Source: an uncultured Gemmatimonadota bacterium
GTDB lineage: Bacteria > Gemmatimonadota > Gemmatimonadetes > Gemmatimonadales > Gemmatimonadaceae
NCBI GenBank assembly: GCA_902825965.1
Contig: CADEDA010000007.1
Coordinates: 62,001 to 126,000, forward strand
Reading direction: 5' to 3'
Length of the DNA stretch: 64,000 nucleotides
In this document: one piece after another, positions 35,705-64,000 of the stretch
How the letters are laid out: every line of letters begins with the position of its first letter
How positions within the stretch are numbered: position 1 is the first letter of the stretch
Program-made: the position numbers and the translations under genes
The notes under the pieces: model-generated
What the model was told of the DNA's origin: nothing
The model's input: the letters and a program-made list of their open reading frames with translations, nothing else
Databases searched by the model: none

Positions 35705-37029
35705 TGCCTTCCGTCTACATCGAAACCTACGGCTGCCAGATGAACGTCAGCGATTCCGAGCTGATGTACGGCAAGCTGCAGGCCGAGGGCTACGAGACCA
35801 GCGATTCGCCGGTGGGCGCGGACGTCGTGCTGGTGAACACCTGCGCGATCCGGGAGAATGCGGAGCAGCGGGTGATCGGGCGGCTGGGCGAACTCCGGCG
35901 CGACCTCAAGCCCGGCGCGGTGCTCGGGGTGACCGGCTGCATGGCGCAGCGCCTGGGACCGCGCCTGCTCGAGACCGACACCCGCGTGCAGCTCGTGGTG
36001 GGTCCGGACGCGTACCGCATGCTGCCGGCGCTGATCGACGGGGCGCGCAACGGCGAGCGCTTCACGGCCACCGACTTCGACCTCGAGGAGCACTACGAGG
36101 ACTTCACGGCGCGCCGGTTCGAGGGGGTGAAGGCGTGGATCCCGGTACAGCGCGGCTGCGACTACCGCTGCACGTACTGCATCGTGCCCACCACGCGCGG
36201 TCCGGAGCGCAGCCGGCGGCTCGCCGAGGTGGTGCGCGAGACCCACGAGGTGGTCGCGCAGGGGATCACCGAGGTGGTGCTGCTGGGGCAGACGGTGAAC
36301 TCCTACCATGACGGCAGGCACGACTTCGCCGACCTGCTGCGGGCGGTCGGTGGCGTGGACGGCATCCGGCGCGTGCGCTACACCAGTCCGCACCCGAACG
36401 ACTTCAGCGACCGCGTGATCGCGGCGATGGCGGAGACGGCGTCCGTCTGCGAGCACGTGCACCTGCCCATGCAGAGTGGATCGACGTCGATGCTGAAGCG
36501 CATGTTGCGACGCTACACGCGCGAGGAGTACCTCGCCTGTGTGGAGCGGCTGCGCGCGGCGATCCCGGGACTCGGGCTCACCACCGACATCATCGTGGGC
36601 TTCCCGGGCGAGACGGACGAGGAGTTCGAGGACACGCTCTCGCTCTGCCGCGAGGTGCGGTTCGACGATGCGTTCACGTTCAAGTTCTCGGCGCGCGAAG
36701 GCACACCGGCCACGCGCATGCCGCCGGAGTGGACCGTGCCGGACGCCACGGTGGACCGCCGCTACGACGCCCTGGTGGCGACCGTGCGTGGCATCGCGCG
36801 CGAGAAGAACATGGCGCGGCTCGGCGCGCGCGTGGAGGTCCTGGTGGAGAAGGAAGCGCGCAAGGGTGAGCTGCTCCAGGCGCGGTCGCGCGACTTCAAG
36901 ACCGTGCTCGTCCCCGGAACGCCGGAGCTCATCGGCTCGTACCTCCGCGTGGAACTGACGGGCACCACCGGTGCGACATTCACCGGTGCAACGGTGCAGG
37001 AGCGCAGCGCGCTCCCGATGGCGGGATAA
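35704..37029 (+). CDS. miaB: tRNA-2-methylthio-N6-dimethylallyladenosine synthase
   Basis: The 441-residue enzyme adds a methylthio group to i6A37 in tRNAs reading UNN codons. The MiaB signature ETYGCQMNVSDSE (Cys11), VNTCAIRENAEQR (Cys47) and VTGCMAQR (Cys79) bind the auxiliary cluster. The radical-SAM motif is CDYRCTYC (Cys152, Cys156, Cys159). HLPMQSGSTSMLKRM and a C-terminal TRAM domain (about 375-440) follow. Its start is fused to the mtaB stop (TGATG). The gene ends at TAA 37027-37029, and the 141 bases after it separate it from the giant surface-protein operon. Confidence 0.95.
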   Translation: MPSVYIETYGCQMNVSDSELMYGKLQAEGYETSDSPVGADVVLVNTCAIRENAEQRVIGRLGELRRDLKPGAVLGVTGCMAQRLGPRLLETDTRVQLVVGPDAYRMLPALIDGARNGERFTATDFDLEEHYEDFTARRFEGVKAWIPVQRGCDYRCTYCIVPTTRGPERSRRLAEVVRETHEVVAQGITEVVLLGQTVNSYHDGRHDFADLLRAVGGVDGIRRVRYTSPHPNDFSDRVIAAMAETASVCEHVHLPMQSGSTSMLKRMLRRYTREEYLACVERLRAAIPGLGLTTDIIVGFPGETDEEFEDTLSLCREVRFDDAFTFKFSAREGTPATRMPPEWTVPDATVDRRYDALVATVRGIAREKNMARLGARVEVLVEKEARKGELLQARSRDFKTVLVPGTPELIGSYLRVELTGTTGATFTGATVQERSALPMAG

Positions 37030-37170: not shown

Positions 37171-40100
37171 GTGCAACGTTCCCCGAACCGTTGTCAGGCG
37201 AGTTCGAAGCGCGAGGACGCGTTGGCCCGCGTGCGGCGGCACGGTGCCGTCGCGGTGGCGCTGCTCTCCTCGGCGCTGGTGATGGTCGCCGCCACGGGTC
37301 GCGGCGCGCTCGCGCAGGCGGGCGATCCCAACTGGACCGCGACGCTGGTGGTGCGTCCCACCCCCAGCCCCTACCTCTCGGACTGGTCGCGCGATCCGGG
37401 CATCGCGCAGCTCTCGGTGTTCTACCGCGGCAACGCGACCGTCGACTACCGCATCGAGGCGATCATCACCGCCACCGGGCGCGGCGAGATCGGGCGCGCC
37501 GCCAGCCCGCTGCAGACCGTGCCGTTCGGGCCGTACTCGCAGCTCTACACCACCACCACGCTGCTCGACTGGCAGGCGTTCAACTACGATCCCGCCGCGC
37601 GGGACATCGCGCTGCGCACCGGTCTGTTGCCCGAAGGGGAGTACCGCATCTGCGCGCAGCTCCGTACGCCGCAGGGCAATGCGCTGCTGGTGGAGGCCTG
37701 CGACGACTTCCGCATCAGCTATCCCGATCCTCCGCAGTTGCTCGCGCCCGCCAATGGCAGTGGCGTGATGATCCCGCAGCCGGCCTTCCAATGGATGCCG
37801 GCGCAGTTGGGTCCCGGGCTCACCGCGCGGTATCGGCTCCGCATCGCGCGACGCCTGCCGAGCCAGGCGCCGCAGGTCGCGCTGCAGGGGAACATCCCGC
37901 AGCACGAAGTGGAGGTGGAGGGCGCGCCGTTCCACGTCTATCCGCCCGACGCGCTCCCGTTGGAAGTGGGGCAGGAGTACGTATGGCAGGTGGAGTTGCT
38001 CGCACCCGATGGTGCCGCGCTGGGCAGCAATGGCCGGCGCAGCGAGATCTTCTCGTTCACGTGGGGCACCACGCGCACCGGGCCGATCACCGTTGCCACC
38101 AATGTGTTCCCCGACTCCATCGAGCTCATCCCCGGCCGCGCCTGGATCACGGGGCTCGGGGAGGTCTCCTTGCGCGAGTCGCCGGGCGAGTACTGGCTGT
38201 CCGGCCGGGCGCAGCTCGTGGCACCGAGCATCTTCTCGCGACGCATCCCGATCGAGCTGCGCGAACTGACGCTCGACCGCTCGGCGCTCCCGGCCGTCCG
38301 TATCACCGCGGGTGACGCGAGCGCGGGGCTCCGGGCGGACGACATCCCGTTGCTCTCGCGCGGGAACTTCGTGCGCTTTACCGGGCTGAGCTTCTCGCCC
38401 ACCGCCGGCATGACACTCGCCGGCGAGCTGACCTTGCCCGGACGCCCCAACCTGCCGCTCGGCGGTCGCGTGCGGATCACGCCGGCCGGACTCGACGGTG
38501 TGCTCACGGCGGAGTCGTCGGGGACGGCGCGGCTGGTGGACATCGGTGGGGACCCGGTGCGTTTCACGGTGGCGCGGGCGAGTGTCGCGTTCCCGCAGGC
38601 GCGTGCGAGCTTCGTCGGTGGCCTCGAACTCTTCGGCCACGATGTCGGCTGCAGCAATGTGTCCGGCGACGCGGAGGCCGGCGGCAGTTTGACGGTGCGC
38701 GTCGTGTGCTCGCCGACCACACCGCTATCGCTGATCCCCGGCGTCGATCGCTTCCAGCTCGCACTCGCCGGGGTCGCCGGGCAGGTGGCCGTGGATCTCA
38801 CGACCGGTGCCGTGACGCCCACACTCTCGGCGGCGGCGGCGCTCACGATGGACGCGGGCATCGCCTGTTCGGCTGACTTCGAGCTCGGGGTCACGGCCAG
38901 CGGGGTGACGACCAACGACTTCCGGCCCAACTGTGATGCCGGCGACGGCAGCGCGGCGCTGGGTGTCGTGCAACTCGCGCTCTCCGCCCTGCGGATCGAG
39001 CGGTTCGGCTACACCGCGGGCCGTGGCTTCGACTTCGCGATGGCCCTCGATGCGACGCCGTCGATCCCCCTGCTCGAGGGACTCGCCATCCCGTCGCTGG
39101 CCGGTGTGCAGATCACACGCGACGGGATGCGATTCCCTTCCATGGATGTGGCCATCCCCGGCAGCGGTATCACGGCTGGCGGGTTCGGATTCCGCGTCTC
39201 GCGGGTTCGCCTCCCCGCGTTCACGCTGTCGTGGACCGATTGGCAGGCCAACAATGGCGACGGTTTCGACTTCGGCTTCGACGCGGCGCTGACCCTGCCG
39301 TCCCTTGGGGCGGGCGCCCCGAGTTGCCTGGCGGGGGATGCGATCACGCTGCGGGACGTGGGGATCCGCAGCGGCCGCTTCCGGGCGACGATCGTGCCGC
39401 GCGACTTCGCGACCGGCAGCTGCGTGTTCCCGCTCGGTCCCGCCGGGTTCGAGCTCACGCGGCTCGGTGGTGCGCTCGCGATCGGCATCGCGGGCCCGAG
39501 CGTCTCGCTCGACTCACTGCCCGAGGCGAACGGCGCGATCGTGCTGCCGCCGGCGCTGAGCTGCGACGGCTCGCCGCGCATGACCTTGGGGACTGCCGCG
39601 CTGCGCTTCGGTCCCAACGGGCGGGTGTTCGGACGGGTGAGCGGACTCGCCCCGCCGTGTCCGATCGACCTCGCGGCGGTACAGGTCCGCATGCGCGACG
39701 CGTCGCTCGACCTCGGCGATCGGGCGGACGGTCCGCAGGTGATGATCCTCCGTGCGGAGGCGGAGGCGACGTTCGCGATCGCGACGACGCCCGTGCGCGG
39801 CGCGGGACGGATCGGCGTGGATCTCGTGCAGCAGCGCCTCACCGAGGGCTCGCTCACCTTCACCGGTCCGCTCCGGCTCGACCTGCCGCGTGAGAATCCG
39901 GTGCTCTCGTTCGAGCTCTCGCGGGTCACGCTCGACACGCTGGGCATCACCGTCGATGGGCGCAATCGCCTCGTGTTGCCGGGCGCCCCGGCCATCGCCA
40001 CGACGTTCAACGCGCTCACGCTCGATCCGCGCACCATGCAGGTGCTCGCCGGCGAAGCGCGGTTCGATGCGCCGTTCGGATTCGAGGTCGGCATCAATGA

Positions 40101-43100
40101 GGGCGGGCTCGCCTGGCGCGCGGTGGCGCGCGGGGCGGCACTCGGCCTGACCGTCGGGCTGCGCGTGGACCTGCCGGAGTCGATCATCCTCGACCGGGCG
40201 GGCTTCCGCGCGGCCGGCACCGGTGATGCGCGGCTGATCTTCGACGGACGCACGTTCGAGTCGCTCGCGTCCACCTTCAGCGACGACTTCGGTGTGGACC
40301 TGCAGCGCTTCGCGGTCACGCAGGGACGGTTGGACCTGCGGCTGCGCGACCAAGTCGTCGCGACGATCGACCGCAACGGCTTCCATCCCAACCTCGCCGT
40401 GATCGGCATGGGCCTGTTGCCCGCGCGACTGCCGTTGCCGAACACCAGCGTCGCCTACCTGCAAGTGCGCAGTGCGGTCGATTCGTCGCTGCTCGTGGAT
40501 GTGGAGACCGTGAGTGGCGGGGGCCTGCGCGTTCGGACGCGGCCTGGGCAGCCCGTGGGACTGGTGTTCCCGGCGCTGCAGGGCGGCCGCGCGGCCGCAC
40601 CGCAGGTGGACGTGAACTTCGACCTCACCTTCGATGGATTGCTCGAAGGCCTGCGCAGCGGGCGACTCGACCTGCGGATCCCGGAGGCCTCGCGTGCGGC
40701 ATTCGACCTCACGGCGCTCGGGATCCCGTTCGCGGCGGATTCGTTCGCCATCGCGCCCGGACCGGGGGGCGGCCCCACGCGGGTCACGCTCGCCGGACGC
40801 ATCCCGCTCTTCGGCGGACCGCGCGGCGCCCCCGGCGCGGCGCAGTTGGTCCTCGATGCCGGTGGGTCGCTGGCCGGCTCGGTGCTGCTGCCGCTGAACG
40901 AACGCATCCCGCTCGTGAGCGGCAGCGAGCGGATCGCCTTGGCGGTGGACACCATCGCGGGCAGCTTCGACGTGAACTTCCCGTCGGGCCGCGTGCTGTT
41001 CGACTTGGCGCTGGCGGGTGGCGTGGAGATGGCGCTCGGCGGCGGCACGCCGACACGGGCCTCGGCGCGTGTCCGCGTCACGGATGAGGGCGTGCGCGTC
41101 AGCGACGTGGTGCTGCCCGAACTCGGGCCGCTCACGCGGATGGACATGGGCGGATTCGCGCTCAGCCTCGAGCGGCTCGCGATCCCGCGGCTGGAGTACG
41201 TCGCCGGACGCTGGGACTTCGAGCTGTCGCTCGACGCCGGCTTCCAGTTCCCCGGACTCGGCGACCTCCAGCTTCCCGCGTTGCGCGGCATCCTGATCAC
41301 ACCGACGGGCCTGACGATCCCCGAGTACGTGGTGCCCGAGTTCCCGGCGAGCACGAGACTCGTGGACTTGGATGGCTTCCAGGTGCGGCCGCTCGCGTTC
41401 CGGATGTCGCGGCTGTCGTTCGATTGGGCCCGTGGAGTCCTGCCGACGGACTTCGGGTTCGGCTTCGACTTCGAGCTCGGGTTCGGCGGACTGCCGGCCA
41501 GTGCGCCGCCCGAGCTGCGCAACCTGCGCGTCACCGTGCTCGACGCCGGCTACCGCAACGGGCGCGTGATCGGCCGGATCGAGCCGCGCGAGCTCGCGAC
41601 CCCGGTGCCGTTGCCGCTCGGCGGCACGGCAGGCATCGACATCCTGCGCCTGGGCGGCACGCTCGGCGAGTCGGGCGGCGCGCAGGACGTCTCCGTGACC
41701 GTGGGCGGGCGATTCCGGCTGCCCGAGGAACTGCAGTGCCCCGCGGCCACCGGCGGTGCTCTCAACATGCCCGGCGCGACGCTCACGGTGACCGGCGCAG
41801 GGCAGGTGAGCGGGCAAGTCACCGGCCTCGTACCGCAGTGCCCGCTCGTGCTCGGACCGCTTGCCGTGCAGGTCACGCGGTCCCAACTCGACTTCAGCAT
41901 CGGCGGCAGCGGCGCGCAGCAGGCGCTGTTCGGACTGGACGGCACGCTCAAGCTCCCGCCGCCCCCCGGTGGCACGGACAGCATCGTCGCGGGCGGGTCG
42001 CTCACGGTGGATCTCGTCGCCGGACGGCTCACGGACGGCTTCATCGAGATCACCCGTCCGTTCGGCCTCGGCTTCCCGGCCGAGGACCCGGTGCTCACGT
42101 TCTCCGTGGCGCGCGCCCGCCTCGACACGCTCGGCTTCACGCTCACCGGTGAAGGAGGACTGAACCTCGACGACGGCGCACGGATCGGCGTGAGCTTCAA
42201 CCGGTTCGCGCTGGACCTGCAGACGTTCCGCGTACGCAGTGGCTCGGCGTCGTTCACGAGTTCATTCGCTCTCGGCGCCGAGGTCGCGGCCGGCGGTGGG
42301 CTGCAGTGGCGTGCGTTGCCCGCCGGTGCGCCGCCGCTCACCACGGACGGGTTCCGGCTCGTGCTGCCGGATGTGGTCGGCATCGACTCGCTCGGGCTGC
42401 GGGTGAGCGGGACCGCGCGGGCGATGGTCCGCGTGGGCGATGAGTCGCTGGACAGCCTCAGTGTGGAGTTCCGCAACCAGTTCGCCCTCGGCCTCGAGCC
42501 CTTCGGCGTGCGACAGGGACGCGTGGACTTCATGAACGGCTCGGCGCTGATCGCACACCTGGACTCGACGGGCTTCTGGCCCGGTGACGTGTTCTCGGTG
42601 ATCCCGATCCCGGATCGCCTGGGGCTGCCGGACACCACGGTCGCGTTCCTGCAACTGCGCGAGGCGGGGCAGGCGGTGGTGGAGACCGAGACGGGTCCCA
42701 CCGGGCTCACGCTCCGGACGCGCGCGGGACGCGGTGTGCGGCTCGAGATCCCGGCGCTGCGCCAGGGTACCGAGGCCGCACCGTCGGTCGAGGTGCGATT
42801 CGACGTGACCGTGGATCCGCGCACCTTCGCGTTCGTGCGCGGCAGCATCACCGCGACCACACCGGAGGGGCAGGAGTCCTTGCTGCCGTTGCGGAACCTC
42901 GGCATCCCCATCGACATCACGGACCTCGCGTACGGGCCGACGCCGTCGGGCCCCTACGGCCTGCGGTTCGGCGCGCGGGTCACGTTGCCGCCGTCCATGG
43001 GTGACATCGAGGTGCGATTCGATTCGCTCACCATCAGTGAACGTGGCTTCAGCGGCACGGCGGAGGTCGGCACCTTCGCCACCACCTACGATCCCAGCGT

Positions 43101-46100
43101 ACGACCGGTGGTGACCAGCACGATCAGTCCGGAGCTGGGGATCGACGTGATCGGCGTACGGGCCGAGTTCCCGGAGGGCGGGACACCCCGGGTTCGGCTC
43201 GCGGGCGCTCTCCGGTCGAGCCTGTTCGCCGAGCCGGGGAGCGGCGGGACCCCGACCCCCGAAGCGATCTTCTTCACGGCGAGCGTGGGCGGTGCCGCGG
43301 GCTTCGAAGCCACGGTGGACCTCGCGGCCTTCGAGGGCCGCGACCTCCCGCTCGGTGTCGCCACGTTCACGCCGGCGAGCATCGAGGGCGTACCCGCACT
43401 CGCGGTCACGGCCAACGACAGCGAGTTCACCGTGCGGCTCTCGGGTACGTTCCGCGTGCCCGACCTCGCGCGCGACTTCGGCGTCACCGTCCGCGACCTC
43501 TCGATCGGCACGCGGGGCATCACCATCCCCGACGTGCGCATCGCCACGCCGGCCGAGGGACAGCGGTTCGACCTCTTCGGCCAGCAGTTCGTGCTCCGTG
43601 ACTCGGTGGGGGGCGGGGCGGACTATCCCGCGCTCGGCTTCCGCTACGTGGACAACGTGCTGTCCGCGACCATGACGGGCGCGATCACGCTGTTCCCCGG
43701 CGCCGAGTACGAGAACACCTCGCGGTTCTGGGGGCTGACCGTCACGTCGCAGGGGAACGTGTCGATCGCCGGCGCGACGCTGCTGAGCCGCTCGATCCCC
43801 ATCGTCGCGCCGGATGTGTTCACGCTGGACTCGGTGAACATCATCGATACGCAGTTGCGCATCGCGGCCAGCGTGCGCCTGCCGGAGCCGTTGGTACAGG
43901 CGCGCCAGCGGGCGACGATCGCGATCAACCCCGACGGCACGGTGTCCGGCAGCTTCCGCGTGGTGGCTTTGGCGGACGAGTCCGCCTGCTGCACCGGCGC
44001 GCAGTTCATCGACTTCGGCATCGCCAAGGTGCGCGTGCGGCACCTCAGCATGACGCTCGATGTCGCGGACCCGCGGTCGGGGGGCATCGAGGCGGTGGTC
44101 GATGCCTACCTGGGCACCGACGAGGAGGACCGGGCGCAGAACCACATCCGCATCGGCGACACCAGCGGCGGCACGGTGCTGCCCGGCCTGCGCATCGGGT
44201 TCGATGGGAGCGTGCTGTTCCAGAACTACGCCCTGGCGCGGGAGTTCAACTTCGACTTCGAGGTGCTGAACCTCCGCTTGACGGAGGTGGCCGCGCCGAC
44301 GGTGCCGGGGCAGTTCGGCGTGGTCATCAGCGGCGGGCTGTCGCTCAACATCGAGGCCGTGACGGGCTCCATCGAGTTCCAGCGCTTCGGCATCACCAAC
44401 CAGGGCGTCACGTTCCCGCCGGACGGCATCCGCGAGGCCTCCCTCAACATCGCCGACGTGCTCGCGGTGCGGCTGGCCGACCTGGTGTTCATCAACCGCG
44501 ACACCACCCTCACACTCGCGAACCCGGACGGCGGCGCCAGCAGCGACAGTGTCACGGTGACGGTGAGCCAGCTGATCTCGTTCGCGGGCTCGGTGAGCAT
44601 CGGCGGGGAGGACAATCCCGTCTTCGCCGGCAGCGTGGAGCGGTTCCTGTTCTACAAGGAGACCAGCGGCGGAACGACACTGATCATCCGGCGCGCCAGT
44701 CTCACGATGCAGAACATCCTGGAACTCACGGCGGATTTCCGCTTCCAGGAGACGGCGACGGGCTTCGGGATGGTGCTGGGGGCCCAGGCGCGATTGTTGA
44801 TCACGCCCGCGGTCGGCGTGCGCCTCTATGGCATGGTCTCCAACAACATCACGGCGGGCGACGGTCTGCGTGTCGGGATGTTCATCGCGATCACGGCACG
44901 CATCGACCTGTTCCCGGCGGTGGCGCTGACGGAGTTCGGCGCCGGGTTCTTCTACCGCCCCCGCGTCGCCGACGTGACCAATGCCTACATGATGGCCGGG
45001 CTCGACTCGGCGGCGATCAACCGCATCCAGTCGTCGCCGGCCGGCGCGCGCGATGCGGACTTCGCGGTCATGTTCTACGCCGCGATCGCCATCGTGTCGG
45101 AATCGGTCGTCGAGGGACGGGTCTTCATCTCGGTCACCTCCGAATCGTTCCTGCTGTACGGCGCGGCCACCTTGCTCGACCAAGGGGCCGAGAAGCTGTC
45201 GGGCGGGTTCTACCTCGTCATCGGACTGCGGGAGGCCTTCGCGGAAGGCTCCTTCTGGATCCGTGTGAACTACGAGCCGCTGGTGACGGGCGAGCTGATG
45301 ATCAACTTCTTCATCTACTCCGAGGATGCCTGGGGCATCCACGGGCAGATGAACCTGAATCTGCTGGGCTTCATCACCGCCAACTCCGACATCTTCGTCG
45401 GGCCGCCGGGCTTCCTGTTCAGCCTGGAGATCGGCGCACGGTTCGACATCTGGATCATCACCATCTCGGCCGGTTTCGAGGCCACCATCTGGTACCGGGA
45501 GGCCCTGGGCGAGGTCGGTGGGTACGTGCAGATCTACGTCGGACTCGAGTTGCTCGGCGGTCTCGTGAGTGCCGAGGCGCGACTCCGCGGTGCGTTCCTG
45601 CTGGCGCCGGACTGGATGCTCTATGCCTCGGCCAGCCTGCGGGTGAGCGTGGTCGGCATCTCGTGGGAGGGGACCATCTGGGCCAAGGCCCAGCCCTCGG
45701 GATGGTCGGGCGGCATGGGCTCGGATCCGACCATGGACGAGATGATCGCCCGGGCCCAGGCGGTGCGCGATGAGATGGAGTCGGCCCGCGACCGCGCGCT
45801 CGGGCTGGTCTCGGACGCGTCCGCGACGGCACCGGAGCTGCGGCGCTACAGCGCCGAGGAGCTCTCCCGCGCCTATGACCGCCTGAACGCCTTGAACGCG
45901 AACGCGCGGCGCTTCGTGAGTTCGCTGTCCGGCTACCTGGAGACGCGCAACGACTTCGGTCCGACGCCGCTGAACGAGCACATCCCGTGGTACACGCAGC
46001 ACGTCCTCGATGACGCCCGGGCGCCGCGCCTGCAGACCGCGGAAGCCGCGGCGGACCTCGACACGGCGATCGCCGGCATGGAGTCCGAGCGCACGCGGGT

Positions 46101-49017: not shown

Positions 49018-51062
49018 CCTGGCGTTCCGCAGTTGCGGCGCTGTTGTTGCTCGCGTGCGCTGGGCCCCTGGCCTCGGCACAGGCACCGGCACAGCCAGCG
49101 GCATCGACGACGACCCGCGTGGTGCCCATGCGCATCGCGCCGGATACCGTGCTGCTCTACGTGCTGGGCGAGCTGCCGCGCAGCGGCACCCTCACGGTGC
49201 TGCGAGGTGTGGCGGGACGCGACACCGTCGCGAGCCTTCCGCTCCGCGCCGTCGTGCCCGCGGCCGAGTTCCGTGTGGCGCTCGGCGACGGCTTCGATGC
49301 GTTGCGCCGCACGCTGCGCGTGGCAGATGAGGTCGAGCTCGCGCGGCGCGTCACCTCGGATGCGTTCGCGCAGACGGTCACGACCTTGGTCTCGCGTCCC
49401 GCGGCGACCGCGCTCGGCCGGCTGGTGGTGGACCCCGCGGCGCCACGCGGCGTGGAGGTGACGTACCGCGTCGAGTTGGAGGCCGCGGCGGGACGCGCCG
49501 GCGACCGCGTCCGCACGCTGAGCGTCCGGGCGCCAGCGGCCGACGCGGGGCTGCGCATGATCCCGGTCCCGAGCCGACTGCGCGTGGAGGCGCAGGCCGC
49601 CCAGCTCCGCCTCACGTGGGCCGAGACGCGCGCGGCCGATGAGTGGCACGTGGCGTATCACGTGTATCGGCGGATCAATGCCGGCCGCGAGGAACGCCTC
49701 ACCGAGTTGCCGATCGTGAGACTCGACGGGCGCGTGCCGTTCTTCGAGGATCGCGAGCTCCAGCAGGGCGCGACCTACCGCTACAGCGTGCGCGCGGTGG
49801 ACATCGCCGGCCGCGAGGGACAGCCCTCCGTGGCGGAGTCGCTCACCGTGCGGGATCGCACGGCCCCCGAGCAACCGCGTGACCTCGTCGCCGTGAACGA
49901 ACTGGGGCGGGTCCGCGTGTCGTGGGCGCCGTCGACGAGTGCCGATGTCGCGGGATACCACGTGGAGCGGGCGGCCGGCCTCAACAAGCGGTTCGTGCGT
50001 GTGACCACGCGTGCCCTCGCTCCGGACGTCCTCGTGTTCGTGGACTCCACGGTACCCCAGCGCGAACAGCACTTCTGGCGCATCCTGGCCGTGGACTCCG
50101 CCGGGAACGTCGGTGCGCCGTCGAGCAGCGCGACGGGGGCCGCGGTGGACAACGTGCCGCCGCCACCGCCCACCAATGTCAGCGCGCGCGCGGTGCAGCG
50201 ACGGCTGGTGATCTCGTGGACGCCGGTGCAGGCCCGCGATCTCCGCGGCTACCACATCTACCGCGGCGACGACTCCACCCGCATGGTGCGACTCACCCGC
50301 GTGCCGTTCGTGGGACGCAGCTTCGTGGACTCCACGTCCGATGGCCGCGGCTTGCGGCCCGGTGGTGGCTACACGGTGCGGGTCGCCTCGGTGGACAGCA
50401 CGCTCAACGAAAGCGCGCCGGTGACCCTGCGGGTCGTCGTGCCCGACGATGAGGCGCCCGAGCCGCCGACCGGCTTCGTGGCCCGCGACGAACAGGGGCG
50501 CTACATGGAGCTCACCTGGTCGTCGAGCCCGTCGCCCGACGTGCGCTGGTACGTCATCACGCGTCGGGACTCCGCCGCGCAGCGCGGTGCCGCCGCCGCG
50601 GCCCGGGCGGCGGACAGCGTGTTGCTCGCGCGCGTGGACGGCCGCAGCGGATCCCCGTGGTCGCTGCGCGACACGCTGCCCAAGGTGCACGGCCGCACGT
50701 ACCTGTATGCCGCGACACCGATCGACAGCGCCGGCAACGTGGGACGGCCGGCGATCGCGCGCATGAGCTTCGCCGAGAAGGTGCCGCCGCCGTCCGTGCG
50801 GTTCGCGGCGGCGACGCTGCTGCCGAACCGGGCCGGCGTGCGTGTGCGCTGGGAGCGTGTGGTGGACCGCGAACTCGCAGGCTACCACGTGTACCGGGCG
50901 AAGAACCCCACCGGGAACTTCGAACGGCGCACCCCACGCCCGGTGACGCAGCTCGAGTTCCTCGATGCTGGCGCCGACGGGACGTGGTGGTACGTCGTCC
51001 GCGCGGTCGATGCCTCCGGCAACGAATCCTCGGCCAGTCGGCCGGTGCGAGGCCTGCCATGA
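49014..51062 (+). CDS. Exported protein with five fibronectin type III domains
   Basis: The 682-residue product starts at ATG 49014, overlapping the giant gene stop (ATGA), with a signal peptide (AVAALLLLACAGPLASAQ). An N-terminal beta region (about 30-180) is followed by five Fn3 domains (about 186-282, 283-383, 383-478, 480-585 and 588-680). The usual strand pattern and tyrosine-Trp core are visible (YHVYRRINAG, YRYSVRAVDIAG, VSWAPSTSADVAGYHVERA, VRWERVVDRELAGYHVYRA). It is likely a periplasmic or surface-exposed structural partner of the giant protein, which has its own Fn3-like C-terminus. No enzyme motif is visible. Confidence 0.87.
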   Translation: MTWRSAVAALLLLACAGPLASAQAPAQPAASTTTRVVPMRIAPDTVLLYVLGELPRSGTLTVLRGVAGRDTVASLPLRAVVPAAEFRVALGDGFDALRRTLRVADEVELARRVTSDAFAQTVTTLVSRPAATALGRLVVDPAAPRGVEVTYRVELEAAAGRAGDRVRTLSVRAPAADAGLRMIPVPSRLRVEAQAAQLRLTWAETRAADEWHVAYHVYRRINAGREERLTELPIVRLDGRVPFFEDRELQQGATYRYSVRAVDIAGREGQPSVAESLTVRDRTAPEQPRDLVAVNELGRVRVSWAPSTSADVAGYHVERAAGLNKRFVRVTTRALAPDVLVFVDSTVPQREQHFWRILAVDSAGNVGAPSSSATGAAVDNVPPPPPTNVSARAVQRRLVISWTPVQARDLRGYHIYRGDDSTRMVRLTRVPFVGRSFVDSTSDGRGLRPGGGYTVRVASVDSTLNESAPVTLRVVVPDDEAPEPPTGFVARDEQGRYMELTWSSSPSPDVRWYVITRRDSAAQRGAAAAARAADSVLLARVDGRSGSPWSLRDTLPKVHGRTYLYAATPIDSAGNVGRPAIARMSFAEKVPPPSVRFAAATLLPNRAGVRVRWERVVDRELAGYHVYRAKNPTGNFERRTPRPVTQLEFLDAGADGTWWYVVRAVDASGNESSASRPVRGLP

Positions 51063-53053
51063 ACGTCCGCGCCGTGGTGGGCATCGCACTGGTGGTTGGT
51101 GCGTCGGCCGTTCATGCGCAGCCGCCCGCCCTGCGCGCGACGCCGCGCACGCCCGACGGGAAGCCCGACCTGGTCGCCATCGAACGCATCGTGCGCGCGC
51201 GACCCACGGACGCCGAGACGCGCGTGGGGTTCGCCGCACTGCTGTTGCAGACCGGGGATACCGCGCGCGCCGAATCCGAGCTGCGCAACGCGCTGGCCAC
51301 TCCCGGCATCGACCGCTCGCGTGTGGCCGTTGCCCTCGGTGAGCTGCTCGGCGTGCGTGGCCGCTACCTCGAGGGCGCCACGCAGCTCGCGCCGTTCGGT
51401 GCGGACAGCACCGCGCGGCGGCTGCGTGCCCGCTTGCTGCTCGTGGCCGGCGCGCGGGCGGAGCGCACCAGCGCGGCCGCCGACCTCTGGGCGCAGGCCG
51501 TGGCACTCGACCCCGGCTTGGTCGAGGGCTGGACCGGACTCGCGGCGCTCGCCGCGACGCGCAATGACGCCGATTCCGCGGTGGCCCTGGTCTCGCGCGG
51601 ATTGCAGGCCAACCCCACCGATCCGCGCTTGCTGTCCATGCAGGCATCGCTGCTGAAGACGGACGAGAGCGTGGCGGCCGCGGTGGCCGGACTCCGTGCG
51701 GCCCGCCGACGGAACGCGACGGAGGAGAACGGTCTCGCGCTGGCGTCCCTGCTGCGCCAACAGGGTGATGCGCCCGCGTTGCTGGCGTTGATCGACACGC
51801 TGCTCGCGCCCACCGCCCCGGGCCGCGAGGTCTTTCGGTTGGCGGCGGATGTGCGCCGACGGCGGGGGGACCGCGCGGTGGCACTGCGCCTCCTCGAGCG
51901 CGGGCAGGGCCTGCACCCGCGCGACGCGCTGCTCTTCGCGGACGAGGCCGTGATCCAGCGCGACGCGAAGGAGTGGCGGCTGAGCACGCAGGCCTGGCTC
52001 CGCGCGATCGATCGCAGCCGGGATCGGGCACCGCTGGAGTTCGAGCTGGCCGAGACCTACGTGCTGTCCGGCGACACGGTGAGCGCCCGCGCGCAGCTGG
52101 CGCCGCTGGCGGACGTCGCACGGCCGCCCGTGGTGTTGCATCGCGCGGCGCTCCGGCTCCGCGAGCTCCACGACACGGCGACCGCCGTCGCGGCCTGGCG
52201 CGCGCGGCTCGTGGCGGACAGCACGGATGCGGCGGCGCTGGTGGGGTTGGCGGAATCGTGCGACGCCGCCGGCCGCGCCGAGGAGGCCCGCGACCTGTGG
52301 CGCGCCGCAGAACCGATCCCCGGCAGCGGGCCGTGGCCGGCACTCGCGCTGCGGCGCGGGGTCGCCACCGACGAATGGCGGCGCTGGACGCGCCGCGCGC
52401 TCTGGCGGGGCCTCGAAGCCCTCGCCGGTGCGGAGCAACGTGCGCTCGGGGCACTCGAAGGCGGGACATCCACGGAGTCGCTCGCCCGAGCGCGCCCTGA
52501 CCTCGCCGAGCGCGAACGTCTGATCGCCGCCTTGGGCCCGATCGTGGACTCGCTCGCGGCGGACGAAGGCTGGGGCAAGGCGGAGATCGTCGAGGCCGCG
52601 CGCGCGTGGCGCGGTGTCAGTGTGCTCACGCGGGCGATGGCACGCGCCGACGTGCAGCACGGGCGTTGGGCCGCCGCGACGGCCCGCTACGACTCCCTCA
52701 TCGCGAACCGCAGCGCCGACGCGGCCCTGCAGATCGAGGTCGGGGACCACTATGCGCGGGTCGGGCGCGCGGCGGATGCACGTGTGCTCTTCACCCACGC
52801 GCTCGAGGCCTCGCCCGAGAGCGAGGCGCCGTTCCGGGCGCTGCTCGCGCTGGATCGGTCGCCCGAGGCCCTGGCCTCGCTGGAGAAACAGGTGCTGCGG
52901 CTCCGACTGCGGCTGCCCAAGTCGCTGGTCCTCGCCGACCGTCTCATCGAGGTGCTGCACCGGCAGGGGCGCGGCGCCGATGCCGCCCGGGTCGCGAAGG
53001 AACTCGAGACGCTGCGCGAAGAGCGCGGGGTGAAGCCGGAGGTGCAGCCATGA
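51059..53053 (+). CDS. Exported TPR-repeat protein
   Basis: The 664-residue product starts at ATG 51059 (ATGA overlap with the Fn3 gene) and has a signal peptide ending ASAVHAQ. It is all helical, Ala/Leu/Arg-rich, with many tetratricopeptide-like pairs (ALLLQTGDTARAESELRNAL, WTGLAALAATRNDADSAVAL, GDHYARVGRAADARVLFTHALE). TPR solenoids scaffold protein complexes; this may hold the giant protein or the barrel in the periplasm. The 3' end overlaps the next start by four bases. Confidence 0.87.
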   Translation: MNVRAVVGIALVVGASAVHAQPPALRATPRTPDGKPDLVAIERIVRARPTDAETRVGFAALLLQTGDTARAESELRNALATPGIDRSRVAVALGELLGVRGRYLEGATQLAPFGADSTARRLRARLLLVAGARAERTSAAADLWAQAVALDPGLVEGWTGLAALAATRNDADSAVALVSRGLQANPTDPRLLSMQASLLKTDESVAAAVAGLRAARRRNATEENGLALASLLRQQGDAPALLALIDTLLAPTAPGREVFRLAADVRRRRGDRAVALRLLERGQGLHPRDALLFADEAVIQRDAKEWRLSTQAWLRAIDRSRDRAPLEFELAETYVLSGDTVSARAQLAPLADVARPPVVLHRAALRLRELHDTATAVAAWRARLVADSTDAAALVGLAESCDAAGRAEEARDLWRAAEPIPGSGPWPALALRRGVATDEWRRWTRRALWRGLEALAGAEQRALGALEGGTSTESLARARPDLAERERLIAALGPIVDSLAADEGWGKAEIVEAARAWRGVSVLTRAMARADVQHGRWAAATARYDSLIANRSADAALQIEVGDHYARVGRAADARVLFTHALEASPESEAPFRALLALDRSPEALASLEKQVLRLRLRLPKSLVLADRLIEVLHRQGRGADAARVAKELETLREERGVKPEVQP

Positions 53054-54741
53054 CCATGGACGCGAGGCACGCGGTGCTGTTGCTCGCCGTCTGCGCCGGC
53101 GCGGCGACGACGGCGGAATGCCAGGCCCTCCAGGTCCCCGGACTGCGCGTGAGCGGCAGCACCGAGGTGACCGGCGAGGCCTACGGCGCCAGCGGCATCG
53201 ACAACCGTCGGCCGGGCAGCTCGTGGCGCGTCGCGATGCGGCCCACCGTCACGCTGTTCGGCGAGTTGAGCGCGAGTGTGGACCTCCTGCTCACCAACGA
53301 GGGCAATGAGTTCCGGCAGAACGTCAATCAGGTGGGCCTGCATCCCAAGTGGCGCTGGATGACCTTCCACCTGGGCGACTTCTCGCAGCCGATGACGGGC
53401 TACACCGTGCAAGGCGTGCGCGTGCGCGGCGCCGGCGTCGACCTGCGCCCGGGCATCCTCCGCTTCTCGGTGCAGGGCGGGCGCACCCAACGCCCGGTGT
53501 TCGCGGGCTCGCAAGGCACCGTGTTCCAGCGCAACCTCGTGGCGGCTTCGCTCGGCGTCGGCCGCGAGGGCGGCAACTTCCTCGACCTCAACGTCGTGAA
53601 GGCGCGCGACGACATCACGCGTCGCGAGCTCGCGCTGCTCATCATCGACAGCACCTTCATCGACACGCTGCCGGGCGGGGCGTTCCGGCCGCAGATCGGC
53701 ACGCGCCCGCAGGAGAATCTCGTCGCCGGGCTCCACGGGCAACTCAACCTCTTCCGTCGCGCGCTGAGCGTGAAAGGGGAGGTGGCCGCGGCCCTCGTGA
53801 CCAACGACCTCACGGCACCGCTCGTCGCCGATTCCTCGCTCAGCGGACCCGCCGCGGCCCTCGGGGACTTCCAGGATGTGCGCCTGAGCACCTCCGGGGA
53901 CTTCGCGTACAACGTCGAGGCCTCGGCGAACGTGAAGCGCGTGCGGCTCCGCACTGCCTACGAGTACGTCGGGCCGGGCTACACCTCGCTCGGGCTCGCG
54001 TACCTGATCGGCGACCGGCGCAACCTCGCGTTCGATGGGTCCTGGCAGCTGCCCGGCGACCGTGTGGTGCTGCAGGGCAACTTCCGCCGCATGGGCGACA
54101 ACCTGCTCGGGCAGCGGAGCTACACCACCGAGCGCGACACCTACGGTGGCGGGGTGATGCTCCGCCTCACGCAGTCACTCACCGGCAGCGTGAATGCCAT
54201 GCGCAACGTCGTGCTGAACGACGCGGTCGTCGATACGTTCGCCGTCGACGTGCGGGCGCTCGCAATCACCTCGTCCCTCTCGTCGCAGCAGGAGATCCTC
54301 GGGCGGCGCACGGTGGTGAGCCTCGCCCACGCGTTCCAGAACTCGGTGGACGGCAACACCGTCCTCGGTGTCCCGGACGTCACGGCACAGAACGTCTCGG
54401 TGAGCCTGCAGGTCTTCCTCACGGAGCGCTTCTCGGTCACGCCGTCGTTCGCCGCCGTCACGAGTGAACTCGTGGGCCAGCCGACGAACCGGAACGTCCA
54501 GCTCGGCTTCCGCGCCGCCGGCAGCCTGTTCGAGAACGCCCTGCGCCTCCAGGCCGCCGTCACCAACGCGCGCACCACGCAGGGACGTGACGTCAACGCC
54601 GTGAATGCGAGTGCCACCTGGGACCTGCCCGGCGACGTGCGCATGAACCTCGCGATGCGCGCGAGTCGCTACGCCGCGTTCGGTCCCCAGGTCGCGTTCC
54701 AGGAGCAGGTCGCGACGCTGTCCTTCGCCCGGAGTTGGTGA
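53050..54741 (+). CDS. Outer-membrane-barrel-like protein
   Basis: The 563-residue product starts at ATG 53050 (ATGA overlap) with a signal peptide (VLLLAVCAGAATTAECQ). The mature chain is a regular series of amphipathic strands separated by short polar turns (RPTVTLFGELSASVDLLLTN, WRWMTFHLGDFSQPMTGYTV). The last strand ends in an aromatic residue (VATLSFARSW), a typical outer-membrane-barrel signature. I do not recognise the exact family. It is the only barrel in the operon and is a candidate for exporting or displaying the giant, Fn3 and PKD proteins. A structure prediction would decide. Confidence 0.83.
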   Translation: MTMDARHAVLLLAVCAGAATTAECQALQVPGLRVSGSTEVTGEAYGASGIDNRRPGSSWRVAMRPTVTLFGELSASVDLLLTNEGNEFRQNVNQVGLHPKWRWMTFHLGDFSQPMTGYTVQGVRVRGAGVDLRPGILRFSVQGGRTQRPVFAGSQGTVFQRNLVAASLGVGREGGNFLDLNVVKARDDITRRELALLIIDSTFIDTLPGGAFRPQIGTRPQENLVAGLHGQLNLFRRALSVKGEVAAALVTNDLTAPLVADSSLSGPAAALGDFQDVRLSTSGDFAYNVEASANVKRVRLRTAYEYVGPGYTSLGLAYLIGDRRNLAFDGSWQLPGDRVVLQGNFRRMGDNLLGQRSYTTERDTYGGGVMLRLTQSLTGSVNAMRNVVLNDAVVDTFAVDVRALAITSSLSSQQEILGRRTVVSLAHAFQNSVDGNTVLGVPDVTAQNVSVSLQVFLTERFSVTPSFAAVTSELVGQPTNRNVQLGFRAAGSLFENALRLQAAVTNARTTQGRDVNAVNASATWDLPGDVRMNLAMRASRYAAFGPQVAFQEQVATLSFARSW

Positions 54742-54742
54742 G

Positions 54743-57700
54743 ATGCGCGTCCCGGCATGCCACAGCGCCCTGGCCGCCCGCGTCGGCTTGCTCACGGCAG
54801 CCCTGAGCGCCGTCTGGCCCGTGCGCGTCGCCGAGGCGCAGTTCGACAGCGTCCGCGTGGACAGTGTGCGGCCGGCACCGGGTGAGCGGCTCGTCGACAT
54901 CGATCCGGTCACCCCGGGCATCCAGTTCCGCTGGTGCATCCGCTATACGCCGTTCGGTGGCAGCCAACCCGGCGGCACCACGCGCGTGGACTCCGCGTCC
55001 ATCGCGGTGCAGGCGCCGCCGCAGACGCTGCTCTACTTCCGCTCCCGAGGGCAGTTCCCGCAGGTGAACCAGTGCGGAGCGGCCACCGGCGGCTCGAGCG
55101 TCCTCGGCGACACGGCGACCGTCGCGGAGAAGGGCAGCTACGAAGCGAGCATCTCGGCGACGCTCCGGTTCGTCTTCGTACCCAATCCCAACAACTCGCC
55201 GCCGGTCTTCGCCGGCTCGCGCGGACGTTTCGTCTCGCCGGTGCACGTGTACCCCAGCGCCGCGGTGATCAGCGTCGTCGGGGATTCGGTGCGGACCAGC
55301 ACCCAGGTGCACCAGCTCAGCGTGCAGCACGATCTCGGTCCGGGCCAGGACATCCACACCACACTGCGCGGCAAGCAACGCGTGGGCGGAGTCTTGTTCA
55401 ACGCGAGCTCCGGCGACACCACGCGCACGACCGACGCGACGCAGACGGTCGTCTTCGACTCGCCGATCCTCAACGGACCGACGCTCCTGCGGTACGACTT
55501 CTATACGGACTCCGTCCCCGGCCTCGCCCGCGGACGGGACCGCGCGTTCGTACGGGCCGGCGTCGTGCCGGCGTCCACCGTCATCCAGCAGCCGTTCCCG
55601 GCACCCAACAATCCGTATCCTCCGCGCTTCGACCTCCGCGGGCGCGCCGTCGCCGGCATGTACGTGCGGGTCGCGGCCTGCTCCGGCTGCGACGCGCTCG
55701 GCGACTCCGTGCTCGTCGCCGCCGACAGCTCCTGGGTGATCCCCGCCGTGGGATGGCCCAACGCCGGGGCCAACACACTGTCCATCGTCGGACGGGACAG
55801 CGACGGGTTCACCGACTCCGTGAGCGTCGGCTTCCCGGTCGCGGCGAACCTCGCGCCGACGGTGCAGATCACGTCGCCGGCGGTCGCACCGCCCGGGCCG
55901 GGTCGCGATTCACTGCGCGTGGGGGTCGGGGAGAACCTGAACTTCACGGCGACGGGCAGCGACCTCGACGGCAGCATCGTGAGCTGGAGCTGGGACTTCG
56001 GCAACCAGACCTCGTCCACGCTGCAGAATCCCGGCCTGCGGAACTACGCCGCACCCGGTCGCTACCTCGTCACCGTCCGCGCCGCCGATGACCTCGGACT
56101 GTTCTCCGTCCGGGACACGCTCATCGTGAACGTGCGCGTGCGACCCGCGGTGCGCATCATCGAACCCGCCGACAACGCGGCGATCGTCCAACGGGCGGAC
56201 GTCGCGGGGCGCGCCACGCCGGGCGCGACCGTGACCCTCACCGCCTGCTTCGGGTGCAGCGCGCAGGGGACCACCCGCGTCGCCGCGGCGGACAGCACCT
56301 GGCGATTCGCCGCCGTGCAGTTTGCCGCCACCGCGCAACTCGCGTCGATCATCACGACCGTGTCCGACACCACCACGCTCGGCAGCGCCGACACGGCGCG
56401 CGTCACGGTGATCGCCAACCAGCCGCCGGTCGTGACGCGCCTCTCGCCCGGGGCCGATTCCGTGCGGATCGCGCAGGGGGACTCGGTGTTCTTCGCCGTC
56501 TCGTCAACGGATCCGGACGGCAGCATCGCCTCGCGGCAGTGGCGGCGTGGCGTGCTCGCCATCGGAGCCGCCGACACGCTGGGCTGGCGCGTCTTCCCGG
56601 ACACGGGCAACAACGTGCTGGGCTTCCGCGCGGTCGACAACGTGGGCGACAGCGTCGTCACGCGGTACGTCGTGCGGGTGGTCGCGAACGCGCCGCCAAC
56701 GGCGCTCATCACCTCACCTGGCGCGGACACCACCGTGGCGGTCGGGGACGCGGTGCTGTTCCAAGGTGTCGTCAACGATCCGGACGGCGCTGCCGCGGTG
56801 CTCTGGGACTTCGGCGACGGACGCAGCACGCAGTCACCCTCGCCGCTGCCGATCAGCTACGGGACACCGGGCGTCTACACCGTGACCCTCCGAGGGACCG
56901 ATGAGTTCGGACGGTTCGATGTCGACACCGTGGTGGTGACCGTGCGTGCGCGTCCGGTGGTGCGCATCATCGCGCCGGCGGGGCAGGCGAGCCTGCCGCA
57001 GCGATTCGACATCACGGGCCGCGCCTCGCCGGGCAGCACCGTGCGCATCGCGCAGTGCACGGCCTGCACGACGCTCGACTCCACGCGCGTCGCCGCAGCG
57101 GACAGCAGCTTCACCTTCGCTGCCGTCGACTGGGCCCAGCCGGGACCGGCGAACACGCTGCGCCTGCGAGTCACCGACGCCTTCGGGTTCACGGACTCCG
57201 CCAGCGTCACCTTCGCGGTGACGGCGAACCTCGCGCCGGTCGCGACGATCACCGCGCCGGCGGCGGACACCAGCATCCAACTCGGCGGCACGGTACGGTT
57301 CGTCGGCACGGCGACCGACCAGGACGGGCCCGCGCCCAGTGTACTCTGGGACTTCGGCGACGGACGCAGCGCGACCACGCTCACGCCGCCCAACCTCACC
57401 TACAACAGCGCCGGGACGTTCCTCGTCACGCTGCGCGCCACGGACGCACTCGGGGCGTTCGACGTGGACACGGTGCGCGTCACCGTCGTCGCCCAAGTGA
57501 ACCGCAGGCCCGCGGTCACCATCACACAACCGGCGACCAACCCCGCGATCGCCGTAGGCGACAGCATCACCTTCACCGCGACCGCCACCGACCCTGACGG
57601 CGACCCATTGCGTGTCCGCTGGACGTTCGCACCCGGCGACACGGTCATCGGGGCCTCGGTCCCCAACCGCCGATTCCCGGTGGGCGGTGCGTTCACGGTG

Positions 57701-57970
57701 ATCGTGCGCGCCACCGACCCGGCGGGGTTGTTCGCCGAGGACAGCGTCACCGTCACTGTCGGCGGCCGCGGGGTGAATGTGGATGTCACCAGTCCGGGCA
57801 GCGCCACCCGGGTGGATGGTCACGACGTCGTCTTCGTGCTCCGCGCCATGACCACGCAGGACCTGCGCGCGGACGTCAACGGCGACGGGCGCGTTGACCG
57901 TGCCGACCTCGCGGCCGTGCGCGCCGCGTTCGGAACCACGGTGCCCGCCGCCGTGAGGAGGCAACCATGA
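54743..57970 (+). CDS. PKD-repeat exported protein with a C-terminal dockerin-like domain
   Basis: The 1075-residue product begins one base after the barrel gene stop, with a signal sequence (first 32 residues, ending VAEAQ). The N-terminal 360 residues are beta-rich. Then come PKD domains (about 370-470, 649-736, 828-916 and 919-1008; VLWDFGDGRS occurs twice), alternating with Ig-like units (470-560, 737-828), and a divergent PKD-like unit (559-648). The C-terminus has two dockerin-type repeats: degenerate RVDGHDVVFVLRAM (about 1024-1037) and DVNGDGRVDRADLAAVRAAF (1044-1063), a good EF-hand-like calcium loop. The next gene encodes a cohesin-like lipoprotein, so the pair probably binds one another. 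There is no catalytic domain. Confidence 0.87.
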   Translation: MRVPACHSALAARVGLLTAALSAVWPVRVAEAQFDSVRVDSVRPAPGERLVDIDPVTPGIQFRWCIRYTPFGGSQPGGTTRVDSASIAVQAPPQTLLYFRSRGQFPQVNQCGAATGGSSVLGDTATVAEKGSYEASISATLRFVFVPNPNNSPPVFAGSRGRFVSPVHVYPSAAVISVVGDSVRTSTQVHQLSVQHDLGPGQDIHTTLRGKQRVGGVLFNASSGDTTRTTDATQTVVFDSPILNGPTLLRYDFYTDSVPGLARGRDRAFVRAGVVPASTVIQQPFPAPNNPYPPRFDLRGRAVAGMYVRVAACSGCDALGDSVLVAADSSWVIPAVGWPNAGANTLSIVGRDSDGFTDSVSVGFPVAANLAPTVQITSPAVAPPGPGRDSLRVGVGENLNFTATGSDLDGSIVSWSWDFGNQTSSTLQNPGLRNYAAPGRYLVTVRAADDLGLFSVRDTLIVNVRVRPAVRIIEPADNAAIVQRADVAGRATPGATVTLTACFGCSAQGTTRVAAADSTWRFAAVQFAATAQLASIITTVSDTTTLGSADTARVTVIANQPPVVTRLSPGADSVRIAQGDSVFFAVSSTDPDGSIASRQWRRGVLAIGAADTLGWRVFPDTGNNVLGFRAVDNVGDSVVTRYVVRVVANAPPTALITSPGADTTVAVGDAVLFQGVVNDPDGAAAVLWDFGDGRSTQSPSPLPISYGTPGVYTVTLRGTDEFGRFDVDTVVVTVRARPVVRIIAPAGQASLPQRFDITGRASPGSTVRIAQCTACTTLDSTRVAAADSSFTFAAVDWAQPGPANTLRLRVTDAFGFTDSASVTFAVTANLAPVATITAPAADTSIQLGGTVRFVGTATDQDGPAPSVLWDFGDGRSATTLTPPNLTYNSAGTFLVTLRATDALGAFDVDTVRVTVVAQVNRRPAVTITQPATNPAIAVGDSITFTATATDPDGDPLRVRWTFAPGDTVIGASVPNRRFPVGGAFTVIVRATDPAGLFAEDSVTVTVGGRGVNVDVTSPGSATRVDGHDVVFVLRAMTTQDLRADVNGDGRVDRADLAAVRAAFGTTVPAAVRRQP

Positions 57971-58581
57971 ATCCGCCGTTCCGTCCGCTCCGGCATTGCG
58001 GCGCCACCCGGCTGCCGCGTGGGTTCGCGTGTATGCTCGCCCTCGGCACGGCGCTCGTCGCATCCTGCGTGGAAGGGCCGTTCGAGCCGTTCGATCCGTC
58101 GCGGGATGATCGGGCCTTCCGATTCCTCGCCGGTGCCGCGGACGGGGTGCCACTCACCGCGCTGACACCCGGGGCCGTCCTCGGCGACAGCGCGCTCGAC
58201 GTCGACCTGCGGCTGCGGGACGCGCCTCGCCTGGCTGCGCTCGCGTTCGAGCTCGTGCTCGACGCGTCCACCGTCACACTCGATACGCTGCGCGGTGGCA
58301 CGTTCTTCGTACCGGCCGAGCGGGTCACGGTGCTCGAGTTCGCCAATGTGGGTGCCAACCGCTGGGTCGGTGTCGTCGCACTCGACTCGTTGGTGCCCGG
58401 CGTCGGTGGCAGCGGCGTACTCGGCACCGTGCGCCTCCGCCGGACGTCCGCCGTCGCGTTCGAGACCACGATGCGGTTCGACACCGTCACCACCCGCGCC
58501 TACGGGCCCGACGGCACGCCGCTGGCGATGCGGTTCGCCGCGGGCCGTGTGCGCCACAACCCGCGCGCGCCGACGCCCTGA
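57967..58581 (+). CDS. Lipoprotein with a cohesin-like domain
   Basis: The 204-residue product overlaps the dockerin/PKD gene by four bases. Its signal peptide ends in a lipobox (LALGTALVASC, Cys34), and a short linker follows. The C-terminal 140 residues have the cohesin strand pattern (DVDLRLRDAPRLAALAFELVLD, then STVTLDTLRGGTFFVP, WVGVVALDSLVPGVGGSGVLGTVRLRR). Cohesins bind dockerins tightly, and the adjacent gene's product ends in a dockerin-like pair. The lipid anchor would place the cohesin on the inner or outer membrane face, tethering the PKD protein. The cohesin call is from pattern, and I have not aligned it. Confidence 0.8.
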   Translation: MNPPFRPLRHCGATRLPRGFACMLALGTALVASCVEGPFEPFDPSRDDRAFRFLAGAADGVPLTALTPGAVLGDSALDVDLRLRDAPRLAALAFELVLDASTVTLDTLRGGTFFVPAERVTVLEFANVGANRWVGVVALDSLVPGVGGSGVLGTVRLRRTSAVAFETTMRFDTVTTRAYGPDGTPLAMRFAAGRVRHNPRAPTP

Positions 58582-60921: not shown

Positions 60922-60972
60922 TTCGGCCACCTTTCCCGGGTTGCCGTTCCCCCGACTGCCCTTGGAGCCCCC

Positions 60973-61983: not shown

Positions 61984-62037
61984 CCGCGCGAGCGACACCG
62001 TCCCGCCCGTGACGCGCCCGTCCGCCGCGCGCCAGCG

Positions 62038-63645
<1,608 letters not shown>

Positions 63646-63672
63646 CGCGCGGGCGTCGTGTAGATTCCGGCT

Positions 63673-64000
63673 GTGTACGCCACCTGCATCCACTGTCACG
63701 GTGCGCTCGGCCGCAACGAAGCGCTCGAGCACTTCCCGGTCGGTCGGCGCGTCGCCTTCGACGCCGACAAGGGACGGCTCTGGGTGGTCTGCCCCCACTG
63801 TGGGCAGTGGAACCTCTCGCCGATCGAGGAGCGCTGGGAGGCGATCGAGCAAGCGGAGCAGCGGTACCGCGACACCGCCAAGCGCGTCGCCACCGACCAG
63901 ATCGGCCTCGCGCGACTGCCCGATGGCGCAGAGCTGATCCGCATCGGGCGACCGGTGCTGCCGGAGTACGCGGCCTGGCGCTACGGGCCGCGCTTCCGGT
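63673..64000 (+). CDS. Zinc-ribbon-like protein, 3' end outside window
   Basis: A frame opens at GTG 63673 and is still open at the window end, giving 109 visible residues. It has two CxxC pairs: CIHC (Cys5, Cys8) and CPHC (Cys40, Cys43), a spacing of about 31 residues that fits a zinc ribbon. The chain between them is RRVAFDADKGRLWVV, and after it come WNLSPIEERWEAIEQAEQR and YAAWRYGPRF. TAGATT lies only six bases upstream of the GTG and could be a -10-like box with a leaderless start. The function is unknown. Confidence 0.65.
   Translation, partial: MYATCIHCHGALGRNEALEHFPVGRRVAFDADKGRLWVVCPHCGQWNLSPIEERWEAIEQAEQRYRDTAKRVATDQIGLARLPDGAELIRIGRPVLPEYAAWRYGPRFR

Follow-up and report, generated by a model that had tools for sequence, protein, structure and literature searches.

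We describe a six-gene operon in a 64-kb stretch of DNA (the window; G000:C7:62001-126000) from the metagenome-assembled genome (MAG; 4.07 Mb, 95% complete) of an uncultured Gemmatimonadota bacterium with Gemmatimonadaceae MAGs among its near relatives. The operon encodes a giant protein, a fibronectin type III (Fn3) protein, a TPR protein, an outer-membrane (OM) β-barrel, a PKD-repeat protein with a dockerin, and a small lipoprotein. On balance, we favour the reading that it is the Gemmatimonadota branch of a dedicated OM export or display module with exchangeable cargo, in which the barrel is paired with the N-terminal ~250 residues of the giant (the N-module).

A conserved core of exported genes

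Re-reading the open reading frames (ORFs) reproduced the six plus-strand genes of a first-pass annotation, with their positions and spacing: four-base overlaps at 49014/49017, 51059/51062, 53050/53053 and 57967/57970, and a single-base gap between the barrel and PKD genes (54741/54743). MiaB (35704-37029) and ComEC (58681-60921) flank the operon. In the sister MAG G016 (isolate SJ530), contig C46 carries the giant beside MiaB, and contig C51 carries the end of the giant, then the other five genes, then ComEC; this order, ComEC included, excludes a chance origin of the six-gene set. Because long antisense ORFs are frequent in this GC-rich genome, a test of selection on the genes matters. The ratio of nonsynonymous to synonymous substitution rates between window and sister was 0.21, 0.17, 0.14, 0.11, 0.16 and 0.16 for genes 1 to 6, the value for gene 1 (the giant) being computed over its last 223 codons only. 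All six are therefore real genes under purifying selection. The export signals of the six products were assessed by eye, and Pfam assigned none of them to an enzyme family, in keeping with the earlier remark that no enzyme motif is obvious. Neither a sigma-70-type promoter nor a supported terminator was found at the operon, in scans that do not cover the promoters of this phylum.

The giant is present in 7 of 80 relatives searched, the window genome included. Giant, Fn3, TPR and barrel genes occur in succession in the window, the sister, G005, G009, G025, G034, G284 and G131 (where the TPR gene was found in the gap, at 100.9 bits); G331 is without a TPR gene. Core genes in the other loci are often spaced by 4- or 1-base overlaps. 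A lipoprotein gene follows the barrel in G005, G009, G034, G284, G131 and a second copy in the window genome itself, which lies on two contigs: giant and Fn3 on C38 (L016), continued by TPR, barrel and a 3074-residue Big_2 lipoprotein on C39 (L049). Rather than being scattered, the orthologues thus keep the core order across several families, and the co-conservation in other genomes for which the first-pass annotation had called was found in several Gemmatimonadota lineages. These data support its proposal of one co-conserved exported set comprising a giant, a barrel exporter or anchor and a TPR helper.

The TPR protein was recognised as such by Pfam; its conserved core is the last ~250 residues, the N-terminal TPRs being extra here (alignment A4). 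The Fn3 assignment of the second protein also held in Pfam, but not the count of five domains, since three stretches pass on their own.

The N-module accompanies the barrel

The N-module is the part of the giant that is common to Bacteroidota proteins. A profile built here (A8, which includes a Pontibacter relative) matched a full-length N-module in 15 of 395 genomes of the phylum. The barrel profile matched in 13 of the 395, and all 13 fall among the 15 (Fisher p 1.4e-22, for genomes that are related and not independent). In both N-module-only genomes, G014 and G249, a contig end cuts the giant short. Shorter carriers also occur: G359 and G174 encode ~800-residue proteins bearing the module, and in G205 it is followed by a FecR protein and then the barrel. 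In G228:C52 (L060:5063-15500) N-module and barrel are fused in one 861-residue protein; genes for another N-module protein and for an Fn3 protein come next.

We searched 72,556 plasmids with the N-module by tblastn and obtained only Bacteroidota records below E 0.1. These loci were then scored with profiles made solely from Gemmatimonadota proteins; bit scores are quoted because E-values of small searches vary with set size. The Bacteroidota N-modules scored 52-89 bits. Persicobacter has, in a single cluster, a barrel matching over its full length (134.5 bits), an Fn3 protein (139.6 bits) and a 2119-residue N-module protein (89 bits) with a pretoxin-HINT (PT-HINT) domain. On Emticicia oligotrophica pEMTOL03, an 18-repeat SprB protein precedes the barrel (106 bits); 53 bp downstream lies the gene for an N-module protein of 2719 residues that ends in a WHH nuclease, followed by a SUKH-1 immunity gene. 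Runella pSP2_2 carries a barrel (93 bits), 15 bp, an N-module protein, an Fn3 protein (96 bits), a PKD lipoprotein and a giant with a type IX secretion system (T9SS) tail. On a Pontibacter plasmid (L066:13228-40409) the N-module gene heads an RHS operon, and a divergent gene matches the barrel weakly (28 bits in three pieces) and is followed by that of a gliding-type C-terminal-domain protein; a TANFOR-like N-terminus on the weak-barrel protein was looked for and not found. Bergeyella has fragmented N-module genes and no barrel. The Fn3 profile scored the Bacteroidota relatives at 139.6, 95.8 and 89.3 bits, compared with 28 bits for an unrelated Fn3 lipoprotein of the window genome used as a control.

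The body of the giant scored at most 11 bits per segment against the Bacteroidota proteins, which we treat as no homology. That the body lacks a match across phyla while N-module, barrel and Fn3 protein stay is the pattern that would be expected if an export module could exchange its cargo.

The N-module weakly resembles the TANFOR domain (TIGR02542, curated cut-off 67 bits) in sequence and, like it, is N-terminal in a very large exported protein. None of the Persicobacter, Emticicia and Runella N-termini reaches TIGR02542, so "TANFOR-like" is the most that we claim; the Bergeyella relative scored 13.4 bits.

T9SS tails (TIGR04183, TIGR04131) are absent from the six products in an NCBIfam scan, and TIGR04183 is absent from the window genome, with positive controls detected. 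SprA had no match in the window genome, and none in the control genomes either.

A large barrel, predicted to be plug-less

An AlphaFold model of the barrel (predicted local distance difference test [pLDDT] 81, predicted template modelling score [pTM] 0.71) has its strands from near residue 32 and is without a plug domain, which bears out the earlier description as a barrel-like OM protein. The nearest solved fold is MtrB (Z 20.5, root-mean-square deviation 6.5, 442 residues) and the next nearest are the FimD/PapC pilus ushers (Z about 17); these matches to a predicted structure support a wide OM barrel, not a function. By sequence, the barrel matched nothing in NCBIfam and Pfam, PorP/SprF and MtrB/PioB included, and a PDB search with its profile found nothing. 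Eleven positions are invariant in 15 of 15 aligned barrels (P99, G109, G127, G129, G144, R161, D187, N223, A286, G315 and P465), and none of the non-barrel proteins among those compared rose above the barrel-profile threshold.

The giant protein

Two GTG codons, at 37171 and 37231, could start the giant; we favour the former because the first residues encoded from it (MQRSxNRCxAS) are conserved in the sister MAG. Behind the N-module come ~2500 β-rich residues, a charged helical stretch and a C-terminal Fn3-like part that is conserved across loci. Giants of different loci align end to end at about 30% identity. The giant matched no Pfam family, toxin families included, and a PDB sequence search with its profile found nothing. 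The AlphaFold model of a stretch of its body is all-β, with low global confidence (Table 1). Fold matches of this stretch to ApoB100 (among the best by Foldseek, 4e-6) and LptD come from that model and are not used as functional evidence.

Other giants show further features. In G034:C10 (L026, L027) the giant reaches 6799 residues, with several extra tandem units of ~640 residues. Divergent to the giant at L016:14197-17007 we noted by eye a gene resembling SARP/BTAD-type regulators, and such genes also stand divergent to the giant at matching sites in G005, G009, G014 and G016; it is a candidate co-regulator.

The lipoprotein slot and its probable dockerin-cohesin cassette

In nearly all loci the gene after the barrel bears a lipobox (by eye). 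Most other loci fill this slot with one large Ig-repeat lipoprotein, with Big_2 repeats, Big_2 repeats plus an RCC1 propeller, or invasin-type repeats. Only in the window and the sister is it occupied by a PKD-dockerin protein and then a cohesin-like lipoprotein.

Pfam recognised four PKD stretches and a dockerin in the former, much as the first-pass annotation had proposed, although the dockerin is marginal: type I model PF00404 gave 24.6 bits in the genome search, 23.4 in the sister and 20.8 in the Pfam scan of the products. It is the only dockerin found in the window genome and is near-identical in the sister, and its first repeat, although degenerate, is conserved (PGSATRVDGHDV). The sixth product has a clear lipobox, as claimed, but its cohesin character was not confirmed by Pfam (PF00963, cut-off 24.1; no match) and rests on context and a dockerin-adjacent homologue. 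This homologue is a lipoprotein of the distant genome G307 (C309; L112:2-3905). Two surface proteins with dockerin-like tails are encoded ahead of it, the second one immediately upstream and with the motif of the window dockerin in its tail (SATRVDGHDV...RADVNGD). A PDB sequence search with the sixth product gave chance lectin matches only.

From these sequences, the PKD-dockerin chain and the cohesin-like lipoprotein probably bind each other. G307 had no match to the barrel profile; because it has the pair without the barrel, we regard the pair as a cassette of its own. The cohesin-dockerin tether proposed earlier is thus a probable pair, but one that replaces the Ig-repeat lipoprotein rather than forming part of the core.

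Elsewhere in the window genome, a lipoprotein cluster (L102; G000:C1:134000-150000) has Fn3 and weak cohesin-like domains (PF00963, 21-23 bits) and no obvious dockerin partner.

Table 1. Features of the operon (window coordinates)
Feature	Position	Strand	Properties
Giant exported protein	37171..49017	+	3948 aa, or 3928 aa from GTG 37231
TANFOR-like N-terminal module of giant	37306..38073	+	profile A8, 347.9 bits
Modelled stretch of β-rich body	41671..45240	+	all-β; pLDDT 70.7, pTM 0.36 (low global confidence)
Exported Fn3-array protein	49014..51062	+	682 aa; Pfam fn3 1.8e-18
Exported TPR protein	51059..53053	+	664 aa; Pfam TPR
OM β-barrel	53050..54741	+	563 aa, ~26 strands, C-terminal FARSW
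Exported PKD-repeat protein	54743..57970	+	1075 aa (sister MAG 1254 aa); Pfam PKD_4 8e-50
Dockerin, PKD protein C-terminus	57812..57925	+	24.6 bits, cut-off 22.9 (PF00404)
Cohesin-like lipoprotein	57967..58581	+	204 aa, clear lipobox LVASC

Two further observations concern the rest of the window. A 1209-residue minus-strand ORF at 60223-63852, antisense to two conserved genes and without a Pfam match, is most likely a spurious GC-rich ORF. Two small minus-strand genes (15502-16107 and 16847-17332) have prepilin-type N-termini (AFTLIELI) and are apparently part of a pseudopilin cluster.

Proposed mechanism and alternatives

In the export and display module that we favour, all products would enter the periplasm by Sec, and the sixth, judging from its sequence, would become a lipoprotein. 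The conservation of the N-module and its gene pairing suggest that the giant is recognised through it, and the barrel, with its predicted plug-less fold, would be the part in the OM through which the giant passes or by which it is held. Helper roles, in the periplasm or at the surface, may fall to the Fn3 and TPR proteins. The lipoprotein slot would display variable Ig-type repeats, a role that here may be split between the PKD-dockerin chain and the cohesin-like lipoprotein. Cargo behind the N-module would be swapped, from a non-toxin body of 3500-6500 residues in this phylum to nuclease or HINT toxins in Bacteroidota. A bolder proposal, that barrel and N-module form an unrecognised two-step, T9SS-independent OM export route shared by Bacteroidota polymorphic toxins and Gemmatimonadota giants, is put forward tentatively, as possible but short of likely.

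Several points weigh against the export reading. TIGR02542 scored the giant at 21.2 and 27.1 bits (the latter at 37513-37704), so that its N-module does not reach the cut-off. The Bacteroidota basis is five plasmid records, three with strong barrels, one with a weak one and one barrel-less, and orthology of the Fn3 proteins is less certain because Fn3 arrays are generic. Similarity to MtrB in fold is no sign that a barrel transports proteins. Channel activity of the barrel, and transport by the module as a whole, are inferred, and an anchor role fits the genomic data equally well.

In that anchor role the barrel would be a receptor holding the N-module at the OM, with giant and lipoprotein surfacing by another route. 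Gene pairing and the G228 fusion predict contact, not transport, and the SprB and T9SS-tail proteins of the Bacteroidota loci imply that another exit exists there. The window genome, however, shows no T9SS tail, and a plug-less barrel of ~26 strands is large for a mere anchor; we judge this alternative rather unlikely.

Less probable still is that the giant remains within the envelope, forming a long lipid-carrying amphipathic β-structure of the TamB/ApoB type, with the barrel as its OM end. Its body is all-β in the model, alternates in hydrophobicity (strand contrast 2.49 versus 1.60 when shuffled) and resembles ApoB100, but the model is poor, an OM barrel taken for comparison shows about the same degree of alternation, the ends of the giant are Ig/Fn3-like, and toxin proteins replace its body in Bacteroidota. 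We think it very improbable that the giant is a TANFOR-class polymorphic toxin with an unrecognised C-terminal toxin domain: it shares the N-module with the WHH and PT-HINT proteins, but its conserved rather than variable C-terminal part, the absence of a Pfam toxin family and the presence of an Fn3 gene where an immunity gene would follow all argue otherwise. That unrelated surface genes are adjacent by chance is hardly credible, since, although all six are kept together only in the sister MAG, the order and tight spacing of the four core genes across several families and in the second copy refute it for that core.

For TANFOR-class toxins, the published guess is that they leave the cell by the T9SS. 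A concrete alternative is offered by the barrel, which is conserved next to this N-module in both phyla, although T9SS tails were detected in only one of the two. The module likewise explains a class of giant proteins of Gemmatimonadota that lack annotation, and the operon illustrates how one large lipoprotein can be replaced by a cohesin-dockerin cassette.

Comparison with known systems

TANFOR-domain polymorphic toxins have been described for Bacteroidetes, with Fn3, PKD, SprB and T9SS-tail genes as neighbours and with T9SS export as a hypothesis (Jana, Salomon, Bosis 2020, PMC7073777); neither "barrel" nor "porin" appears anywhere in that paper. In a literature search that reached few subscription journals, we found neither the barrel, nor its link to the N-module, nor a non-toxin giant branch in Gemmatimonadota. 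The statement that no described system has this composition therefore stands for these parts and falls for the Fn3 and PKD neighbours.

As in the TANFOR toxins, the N-module starts a very large exported protein with Fn3 and PKD genes nearby, and the Bacteroidota relatives found here carry the WHH, PT-HINT and SUKH-1 domains typical of the class. Unlike them, the window giant scores below the TIGR02542 cut-off, has no toxin domain, immunity gene or T9SS tail, and belongs to another phylum. T9SS/SprB systems with PorP/SprF likewise pair a large exported repeat protein with an OM barrel, and the Bacteroidota barrel loci also hold SprB and T9SS-tail genes; however, neither the products nor the window genome show a T9SS tail, and the barrel matches no PorP/SprF model. 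Chaperone-usher systems and the MtrB porin sheath resemble the operon at the level of fold only, their barrels of 24-26 strands being the closest solved structures; there is no sequence match, no usher plug domain and, by Pfam, no PapD-type chaperone among the six products. With non-cellulosomal cohesin-dockerin pairs the operon has in common that the gene for a protein with a dockerin tail immediately precedes that for a cohesin-like lipoprotein; it differs in that the first dockerin repeat is degenerate, the cohesin-like protein is too divergent for the Pfam model and no cellulase lies nearby. Because defining features of TANFOR toxins and T9SS loci were looked for and are lacking, we do not file the operon under either; we class it instead as a related system, one that probably works in a similar way.
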